This document shows positions 33,534 through 35,541 of a DNA stretch of 64,000 bases, in pieces. Under the pieces are notes generated by a model. That model had not been told where the DNA came from. It saw nothing but the letters and a program-made list of their open reading frames with translations, and did no database searches. A program made the translations under genes and the position numbers. Position 1 is the first letter of the stretch; the number at the start of each line of letters is the position of its first letter. Origin of the DNA: Nocardia coubleae NBRC 108252 (GTDB taxonomy: Bacteria; Actinomycetota; Actinomycetes; Mycobacteriales; Mycobacteriaceae); assembly GCF_001612805.1 (NCBI RefSeq), contig NZ_BDBD01000004.1:62001-126000 (forward strand). The letters run 5' to 3'.

Positions 33534-33878
33534 CGGGCACTCCTTCGTCGCACCCTCTGGTCAGTCCAGATCGAGGCGGCCGAGAACCGGGACATAGCAG
33601 GCGGCGCGGCAGGTATCGGTCGGCAACTTCGCCGGGGTGCCTGTCGGGCCGTTGCTGTTTTCGTTTGCTGATCGATTGCCCGTGTCGGGGACCTGCGCGC
33701 ACTGCGGTTGCCCGAAATTCTCGTCCTGCTAGGCGATCACGCGCCGCTCGGCGGTTTGCCCGGCGCTCCGTAAATCTCGCGAACACCCTCGGTGAAAGGT
33801 TCGCTCACGTTATGATCCGAAGCGCCTAGAGGGGTTCTGGCAAATCGCGAGCAGACGAGAAGATCGGAGTGAGTGCCC
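33534..33878. other. 345-base gap upstream of the ATP-grasp locus
   Basis: No gene is visible. Near its right end TATGAT (33811-33816) may be the -10 of the next operon, giving an untranslated leader of about 55-60 bases. GGAG at 33866-33869 is the ribosome site of the next gene. The rest shows nothing I can assign. Confidence 0.4.
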
Positions 33879-34295
33879 ATGACCGACGCCATCCACCTCC
33901 CCGCTACCGCGTCGTCCCGAAGCCGGGGCCCCGCCTTGCGGGGACAGCTGGTGGCCGAGTCCGAGCGCGATGTCTCGGTCCGCGTCGACGGCGGGACCTG
34001 GACCTTCGATCGCCGCGATATCCTGCGGCTCACCGAGGAGCGCGCGGCGGAGGGACGGCAGGTGCAGGTCGACATCCGGCCCGGCGCCACCGCGGATTTC
34101 ACCCGCCGGATGCGCGTGGAACTCGTCGAACGACCCATCACGCTGGCCCCCGCACCGTCGGAGGCCCTCGGCGACGAACAGCTCGCCGAAGCCACCCGCA
34201 GCTGGGCGGCGAAACTGCGGATCGCCGAGCGTGGCGGCACCTCAGGGGCGACGTTCACCTTCCACGACGGCATCAACTGCGACAGTCTCGACTGA
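33879..34295 (+). CDS. Candidate precursor or partner of an ATP-grasp peptide-modifying enzyme
   Basis: 138 residues from ATG 33879, nine bases after GGAG. Residues ~20-90 look like a small beta-rich domain (GQLVAESERDVSVRVDG, TWTFDRRDILRLTEE). Residues ~95-118 are probably helical. The C-terminal tail TSGATFTFHDGINCDSLD (121-138) is rich in Thr/Ser (121, 122, 125, 127, 136) and Asp (130, 135, 138), the donors and acceptors used in side-chain ester crosslinks of graspetides. It lies 16 bases upstream of an MvdC/MvdD-like ATP-grasp gene. I infer that the tail may be the modified core; a non-substrate partner role is possible. No known family recognised. Confidence 0.6.
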   Translation: MTDAIHLPATASSRSRGPALRGQLVAESERDVSVRVDGGTWTFDRRDILRLTEERAAEGRQVQVDIRPGATADFTRRMRVELVERPITLAPAPSEALGDEQLAEATRSWAAKLRIAERGGTSGATFTFHDGINCDSLD

Positions 34296-34311
34296 AGCGG
34301 CCGACACAGTC

Positions 34312-35271
34312 ATGGAACGCGCGACCGACGCGGTGCTCATCGTCTCCGAAACCGACGACCTGCACGCCGACGCACTGGCCGTCACGTTGCGCGAGCACCA
34401 CCGCCTCGATCCCATCCGGCTCGACCTGCGCGACTTCCCTTCCGAGACAGGCAGTTTCCGTCTCGACAAGGCCGGATCGAATCGGGCGTTGTCGCATGTG
34501 CACGGCCTGGACGACGTGCGCGCGGTGTGGTGGCGCAGGCCGCACCCGTGCCGCGTCCCGCACGGCGTGCGCGCCGCCGACGACGAATTCCGCCAGGCCG
34601 AATGCGACGGTTTCCTCCAGGGGATGCTGTGGTCGATCCCGGCCTACTGGGTGAACGACCCGGCCGCCGAACGCACCGCGAGCCGCAAGATCGTGCAGCT
34701 CGAAACGGCACACCGGGCCGGTTTCGCCGTCCCGGAAACACTCGTCACCAACGACCCGGACGAGGCGCGCAGTTTCGTCGAATCCCGTTCGGTGCCCGTG
34801 GTTTACAAACGCACCGGTACGGGCCGTGGTGAGTTCTCCGAGACGCGCATCATCACCCGGCCCGAGCTGGGCCGGCTCACCTCGATCCGTTCGACGCCGA
34901 CGACCTTCCAGGATTACGTGGACGCCACCTGCGATCTGCGGGTGGTGTGGGTCGACGGCGTCGAATGGGCGGTGCGCATCGATTCACAGGCGGGTGTCGG
35001 CCGGGTCGATTCGCGGCTCGACACCTCGGTGGCGTTCGCCCCGGACCGGCTGCCCGCCTCGGTGAGCAAGTCGCTGGCCACGCTGATGGGCGCGCTCGGC
35101 TTGAGTTTCGGCGTGGTCGACCTGCGCTTGGGCGTCGACGGCGAGTACTACTTCCTCGAGGTGAATCCGCAGGGCCAGTTCGCCTACCTGGAGATCAAGA
35201 CGGGGCTACCCCTGTTCACCAGCCTGGCGAATCTGCTGGTGCAGGGTGACGGGGCGGTACCCGGCTGGTGA
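34312..35271 (+). CDS. MvdC/MvdD-like ATP-grasp ligase
   Basis: 319 residues. The N-terminal pre-ATP-grasp region starts VLIVSETDDLHADAL. AVWWRRPHPCRVP (71-83) is the signature of the MvdC/MvdD-type peptide-modifying ligases. The ATP-grasp core has VVYKRTGTGRGEF (163-175, nucleotide Lys), GVVDLRLG (267-274) and FLEVNPQGQF (281-290, Mg-binding Glu and Asn). Relatives close ester or amide bonds between side chains of ribosomal peptides (microviridin-type graspetides). The gene directly upstream is the obvious candidate substrate. No transporter or protease is nearby. It ends one base from the convergent HTH gene. Confidence 0.82.
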   Translation: MERATDAVLIVSETDDLHADALAVTLREHHRLDPIRLDLRDFPSETGSFRLDKAGSNRALSHVHGLDDVRAVWWRRPHPCRVPHGVRAADDEFRQAECDGFLQGMLWSIPAYWVNDPAAERTASRKIVQLETAHRAGFAVPETLVTNDPDEARSFVESRSVPVVYKRTGTGRGEFSETRIITRPELGRLTSIRSTPTTFQDYVDATCDLRVVWVDGVEWAVRIDSQAGVGRVDSRLDTSVAFAPDRLPASVSKSLATLMGALGLSFGVVDLRLGVDGEYYFLEVNPQGQFAYLEIKTGLPLFTSLANLLVQGDGAVPGW

Positions 35272-35541
35272 TCAGTCGGCCGGGTTCTTGCGGCGGTTGG
35301 CGCCGCCGCGCCCGCGCAGCTCGACATGCGATTCGACCAGCACATTGTGAATGAAGCCGTACGAGCGGCCGGTCGCCCTGGCCAGGGAGCGGATGCTGGC
35401 ACCCGCCTCGTACTGCTTCTTCAGCTGGGACTGCAACCTGTCACGGGACTTACCCGTGACCCGGGTGCCCTTCCCCAGCGCGGTCTTGCCTGTCGATGTT
35501 GCCTTGGCCGATCGAGCGGCCTGTCTCGCACTGTCGCTCAT
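35272..35541 (-). CDS. Small basic helix-turn-helix protein (Rv1473A-like)
   Basis: 89 residues, strongly basic. A Lys/Arg-rich N-terminal half is followed by a helix-turn-helix at about 45-70 (YEAGASIRSLARATGRSYGFIHNVLVE), resembling the resolvase/sigma-type HTH. Both tails suggest DNA contact. M. tuberculosis has the short predicted regulator Rv1473A at the same place between the ABC-F gene and acnR. Target unknown. Confidence 0.82.
   Translation of the reverse strand: MSDSARQAARSAKATSTGKTALGKGTRVTGKSRDRLQSQLKKQYEAGASIRSLARATGRSYGFIHNVLVESHVELRGRGGANRRKNPAD

Follow-up and report, generated by a model that had tools for sequence, protein, structure and literature searches.

A conserved ATP-grasp gene pair of Nocardia that probably forms a graspetide-type system acting on the tail of a folded protein

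The window, a stretch of 64,000 nucleotides from Nocardia coubleae NBRC 108252 (genome of 6.6 Mb; nearest named relatives N. rosealba, N. ignorata, and N. caishijiensis), carries a two-gene locus that we regard as probably a graspetide-type system, in which a 138-aa protein would serve as a dedicated substrate and an ATP-grasp ligase would form Thr/Ser-Asp esters in the tail of this folded protein (Table 1). Comparative evidence argues strongly for the 138-aa protein as the enzyme's dedicated substrate, as comparison of the homologous loci shows strict pairing of the two genes, purifying selection on both tail and barrel, and joint decay of the protein and the enzyme's active site. We further infer ester chemistry, a ring pattern, a role for the barrel and helix, and a tail that is not cut off. 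The locus looks like an old and conserved protein-tail modification rather than a strain-specific antibiotic.

Table 1. Features of the locus and of related loci (positions are those of the window unless a locus is named)
Feature	Position	Strand	Basis or remark
138-aa ORF, candidate substrate (precursor) protein	33879..34295	+	homologues in 136/150 Nocardia genomes
Predicted small six-stranded beta-barrel, residues 19-76	33933..34106	+	AlphaFold2, 29 homologues; invariant motifs
Predicted helix, residues 98-112, before linker and tail	34170..34214	+	AlphaFold2; Leu102, Thr106, Trp109 invariant
Tail ATFTFHDGINCDSLD, residues 124-138	34248..34292	+	column conservation, 61 distinct sequences
ATP-grasp ligase, graspetide-type, 319 aa, ATG at 34312	34312..35271	+	family and active-site matches
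HTH_58 gene	35272-35541	-	converges on ATP-grasp gene; stop abuts stop, zero spacer
Conserved upstream region	33772..33869	+	alignment of 20 upstream regions, two from protein-loss genomes
AAATCT box	from 33772
TATGAT hexamer	33811-33816		invariant, -10-like
Upstream block TGGCAAATCGCGAGCAG	33838-33854
Upstream block AGATCGGAG	33861-33869
First barrel-like protein gene	L112 2840-3244	-	before sister ATP-grasp gene
Second barrel-like protein gene	L112 2424-2843	-	before sister ATP-grasp gene
Metallopeptidase-like genes before ATP-grasp genes	L160 5772-6992, L161 4971-6236, L114 2570-3724	-	K-D/E repeats
Metallopeptidase-like gene before ATP-grasp gene	L164 2448-4016	+	T-D repeats
Homologue with repeat expansion	L071 823-1482	+	between barrel and helix

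Both genes lie where a sequence-only reading of the window had placed them, separated by 16 bp, and the ATP-grasp gene is complete. That reading had also credited the enzyme with the full catalytic core of a peptide side-chain ligase, which is borne out by its full-length homology to synthetases and by active-site positions that are intact in the window enzyme; the metal-binding set comprises Asp270, Glu283, and Asn285. The enzyme aligns over its full length with solved enzymes of the MdnB/MdnC/CdnC type (1e-28 to 1e-26), matches the MvdC and MvdD models, and reaches 7.6e-67 with TIGR04187, where its 225.7 bits are below the curated cut-off of 350. A synthetase-type ATP-grasp gene adjoining a precursor gene is a graspetide-type feature.

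For the upstream gene product, AlphaFold2 run on an alignment of 29 homologues gives pLDDT values of 87-97 over residues 21-80 and a disordered tail, and the longer homologue L069 yields a similar prediction of barrel, helix, and disordered tail. The folded beta domain proposed from the letters alone is thus matched by strands predicted with confidence. The barrel motifs GTWTF and TADFTRRxR, together with the three helix residues in Table 1, are nearly or fully invariant. Estimates of dN/dS were 0.12 for the tail, 0.11-0.12 for the barrel, 0.30 for the linker, and 0.48 for a barrel loop; these are Nei-Gojobori values from pairs at 75-95% identity and provide a rough measure. No curated family matched the protein, Pfam matches (DUF1285_C and others) fell below cut-off, and its profile found nothing convincing among PDB sequences. 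Searches of the barrel against PDB structures with Foldseek and VIA-align 2 gave no significant match, and SH3/OB-like barrels at Z 3.6 or less were uninformative. The Phhx(1,2)h-type leader motif, reported for about half of graspetide precursors (PMC8939145), is absent from the first 30 residues of the window protein and occurs in loose form in 30 and in strict form in 4 of 61 homologues. One homologue, L071, contains a repeat expansion built of GTEGSATHGNDVL-type units.

The last 18 residues of the window protein, TSGATFTFHDGINCDSLD, contain five Thr/Ser and three Asp residues as first claimed, with Thr125, Thr127, and Ser136 as candidate donors and Asp130, Asp135, and Asp138 as candidate acceptors. 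Across 61 distinct sequences the full-tail consensus is ATxTxCQT[KR]SxxxSDDGxxCDSLD, and the Thr/Ser donor and Asp/Glu acceptor columns keep their kind of residue in 97-100% of the sequences that have them, while the residues between them vary (F/M/Y, Y/F/C/R, L/H/F, N/A/H). The pattern that the sequence-only reading had anticipated, conserved Thr/Ser and Asp with variable flanking residues, therefore holds across these sequences, and C-terminal Thr/Ser donors and Asp acceptors at conserved positions are a second graspetide-type feature. Members of the window lineage (13 distinct sequences) have a shorter tail, ATFTF[HR]DGINCDSLD, which is missing about 9-10 residues of most relatives (CQT[KR]S and three or four more) and has Arg or His where the relatives have the first Asp of SDD; the longer tails of most relatives add further donors and one more Asp. 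Tail Lys is confined to a single column, occupied by Lys or Arg. With no conserved Lys in the tail, the conserved linkage is more likely to be an ester than an amide. A nearly invariant Cys in the tail (57 of 61 sequences) counts against this reading, as it could point to a different chemistry.

The tail also bears on the idea that the ATP-grasp enzyme adds an amino acid or amine to the Asp side chains or to the C terminus, in the manner of RimK-like or PGM1-like ligases, and makes no cross-links. The same fold serves such ligases, the enzyme scores weakly with the RimK family, and the protein invariably ends in Asp. However, the best full-length matches are to macrocycle-forming enzymes, and the tail Thr/Ser columns are conserved as much as the Asp columns, and we consider simple attachment improbable.

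Of 150 Nocardia genomes searched with tblastn, 146 have the enzyme and 136 the 138-aa protein. Co-occurrence of the two genes had been expected from the outset, and in all 136 genomes with the protein the enzyme is found on the same contig and strand, with the protein gene first and at one syntenic place, at an intergenic distance of 13-360 bp (median, 26). A profile of the 29 homologues, searched against 401 genomes of the family, gave clear matches confined to Nocardia; short matches in three genomes of one other genus (E 0.004-0.008) were treated as chance, and about 350 genomes from 30 related genera yielded no clear relative of the protein.

The gene order is acn, acnR (TetR), MarR (minus strand), cupin, 4HBT thioesterase, the pair, HTH_58, ABC-F, and SDR. 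This neighbourhood is largely retained from acn to SDR genus-wide, even where the 138-aa protein is lost; the HTH_58 and ABC-F genes stay together throughout Nocardia, and the thioesterase, cupin, or MarR gene is absent or relocated in some species. In correction of the sequence-only reading, the pair does not stand alone between acnR and the HTH gene, as the MarR, cupin, and thioesterase genes intervene. Since a single syntenic neighbourhood extends across the genus, the pair is an old, vertically kept locus, and to describe it as an insertion was too strong. Similarly, the statement that no protease or exporter is linked holds for conserved positions, where comparison of the locus across Nocardia found no protease or dedicated exporter near the pair, but some 3 kb downstream, past the HTH, ABC-F, and SDR genes, the opposite strand carries a gene for an MMPL transporter. 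The MMPL gene is present in the flanks of 21 of 24 relatives, and nothing ties it to the pair.

These features speak to whether the locus makes an ordinary graspetide product. In that case an unlinked protease would release the cross-linked tail from its oversized leader, and the exported peptide would act, for instance, as a signal or protease inhibitor. Such a product would be compatible with the MMPL transporter, with the variable linker before the tail (dN/dS about 0.30), as for a possible cut-site region, and with the many graspetide loci in which a clustered leader protease is missing (PMC8939145). Leader proteases of graspetides are often unclustered, and therefore their absence says little about tail release. 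On the other hand, barrel and tail are equally conserved, there is hardly any diversification of the tail, and almost every Nocardia genome has the locus, whereas a second, distant ATP-grasp (32-33% identity) is present in only 2 of 150 Nocardia genomes, as would be expected of ordinary, sporadically distributed clusters. On balance, we find an ordinary released product unlikely.

Ten Nocardia genomes (L056-L065) contain the enzyme gene while the intact protein gene is gone. Most of them keep the conserved upstream region, often with a short remnant ORF that has a protein-like start. In all ten of these enzymes Asn285 is replaced by Asp or Glu, a change seen in none of the 71 distinct enzymes that occur with the protein (72 alignment rows including the window reference); Lys126 is changed in eight of the ten and Asp233 in nine. 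Twelve active-site positions, by comparison, are invariant in the 71 enzymes from protein-bearing loci. Fisher's test for the loss of Asn285 gives 5e-13 but takes no account of relatedness, and the fair count is about four independent events. According to a tree built from the adjoining ABC-F and HTH_58 genes, the protein was lost four times, which rules out a single shared ancestor for the effect, and two of the losses are nested, with support of 99-100, among species retaining the pair. Joint loss of the protein and the catalytic site is what a dedicated enzyme-substrate pair would predict. In most of these genomes the decayed enzyme gene retains an open reading frame (that of L063 is broken), which leaves room for a second, non-catalytic use. 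At L064 (G102), a 33-aa ORF just upstream of the ATP-grasp gene, MTDAIRLPGTNTSYQNESSTYGDHHCSNDDDLG, has a protein-like N terminus and a T/S/D-rich end and no barrel. This barrel-less ORF counts against our favoured explanation, but the enzyme beside it has lost active-site residues.

The conserved upstream region is a putative promoter, and its AGATCGGAG block likely holds the ribosome-binding site. The region with its TATGAT hexamer is kept even where the protein was lost. In many relatives, a TTTGCC...GGCAAA inverted pair flanks the TATGAT region.

A tree of 62 ATP-grasp enzymes places the Nocardia clade (support 0.997) within a clade of 0.995 support that also contains L112, L114, L133, L134, and the partial L143. 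A typical short precursor just upstream of the enzyme was seen at none of the four complete sister loci. At L112 the enzyme gene is preceded by genes for two small barrel-like proteins, the first of which has the core-like C terminus TATRTSAQGCDATDDYCCRPV; a search of 200 genomes from its family recovered no relative of this tailed protein besides itself. Comparison of the Nocardia barrel with the L112 barrel-like protein by hhalign returned E 0.001 and a probability of 21%, and homology is not claimed. The second L112 protein has no core-like tail, which would suit a different arrangement in which the 138-aa protein acts on the ATP-grasp enzyme as partner or activator, with the true substrate encoded elsewhere, and partner-dependent graspetide synthetases do exist (rosaritide MirC, PMC13097080). 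Yet in the Nocardia family the 138-aa protein itself bears the nearly invariant donor/acceptor tail, and the Nocardia locus showed no further small conserved gene, making a mere partner role very hard to credit.

The remaining sister loci have a different gene in first place. At L114, L133, and L134 a metallopeptidase-like protein with K-D/E repeats in its C-terminal part is encoded directly before the enzyme, and at a further locus, L164 on a Burkholderia stagnalis replicon, an M43 peptidase with T-D repeats precedes the enzyme gene. In the Streptomyces-like genus g144, the enzyme of a peptidase and ATP-grasp pair occurs in 4 of 150 genomes. Makarova et al. reported ATP-grasp branches that are linked to peptidases but have no recognised precursor, and suggested that the peptides are supplied by the peptidases (PMC8939145). 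As a lead and not a result, cross-linking at L114, L133, L134, L160, L161, and L164 may act on the peptidase itself. A broader and more doubtful suggestion, which we offer tentatively, is that this ATP-grasp branch cross-links the retained tails of folded carriers, namely the Nocardia barrel, the L112 barrel-like protein, the L114, L133, and L134 metallopeptidases, and perhaps the L164 peptidase.

In graspetide chemistry, the enzyme phosphorylates an Asp or Glu carboxylate, which the donor side chain then attacks (PMC13097080). Under the graspetide-type explanation that we favour, the Nocardia enzyme would spend ATP on activating the side chains of Asp residues in the C-terminal tail and link them to those of Thr/Ser as esters, giving up to three ester macrocycles in the window protein and possibly four in longer-tailed relatives. 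Together, barrel and helix would be a folded module built into the substrate, which offers the tail to the enzyme and, once the crosslinks are in place, probably goes on carrying the tail; the helix, which lies just ahead of the tail, may act as a leader or recognition helix, and the barrel may aid binding or be the carrier. ThfB, a related graspetide synthetase, can cross-link engineered whole proteins (PMC12291112).

Among known systems, TgmA/TgmB (TIGR04186/TIGR04187, SAV_5884 family) have the same two-gene core with the precursor upstream of the ATP-grasp gene and give the enzyme its best NCBIfam match. The Nocardia enzyme nevertheless falls under the TIGR04187 cut-off, its closest counterpart outside Nocardia among the genomes sampled has 39% identity, and its precursor carries a fused barrel and fits no model, with no NCBIfam precursor model among the matches of any of the 29 Nocardia members. 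The enzymes of microviridins (MdnA with MdnB/MdnC) and CdnC share full-length homology and active-site residues with the Nocardia enzyme, but microviridin precursors are short and have a PFFARFL leader helix (PMC8939145), whereas the Nocardia protein has a barrel before its helix and tail. Pre-fuscimiditide (ThfA/ThfB, graspimiditides) resembles the Nocardia tail in the Thr-rich and Asp-rich sides of its C-terminal core and shares a Thr-x3-Thr spacing with the long-tailed homologues (PMC12291112); it differs in its short leader and Asp spacing, and no methyltransferase was seen at the Nocardia locus. Corallotide (CorA/CorB and partners) has a large precursor whose folded N-terminal domain binds the enzymes (PMC13097080), and the Nocardia precursor is also folded. 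The corallotide domain is helical, however, and is accompanied by repeated Lys-containing motifs and an oxygenase partner, in Corallococcus only, while Nocardia has a beta-barrel, a single Thr/Ser/Asp tail, and no partner gene. The Nocardia pair would work like a graspetide system and has its testable core features but not the TgmA/TgmB scores, and it stands apart through the folded domain fused to the tail, conservation throughout the genus, and the absence of linked processing genes. Because the corallotide precursor already has a folded N-terminal domain, the claim to novelty is limited. The Nocardia microviridin and RiPP literature yielded nothing relevant. Overall, the sequence-only reading was accurate in what it observed and largely so in what it made of it. 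The pair had been called undescribed, and it had no match in the literature and family libraries searched, but the supplementary tables of large graspetide surveys may list the family.

Graspetides are usually regarded as variable, patchily distributed peptide products. A pair that about nine in ten Nocardia species keep at one place, and that includes a folded domain fused to the putatively modified tail, points to a cellular function. The natural losses of the protein, with matching decay of the active site, act as a genetic test of whether enzyme and substrate belong together. Should the tail stay attached, the Nocardia protein would be a natural counterpart of ThfB engineering, with ester cross-linking as part of a protein.
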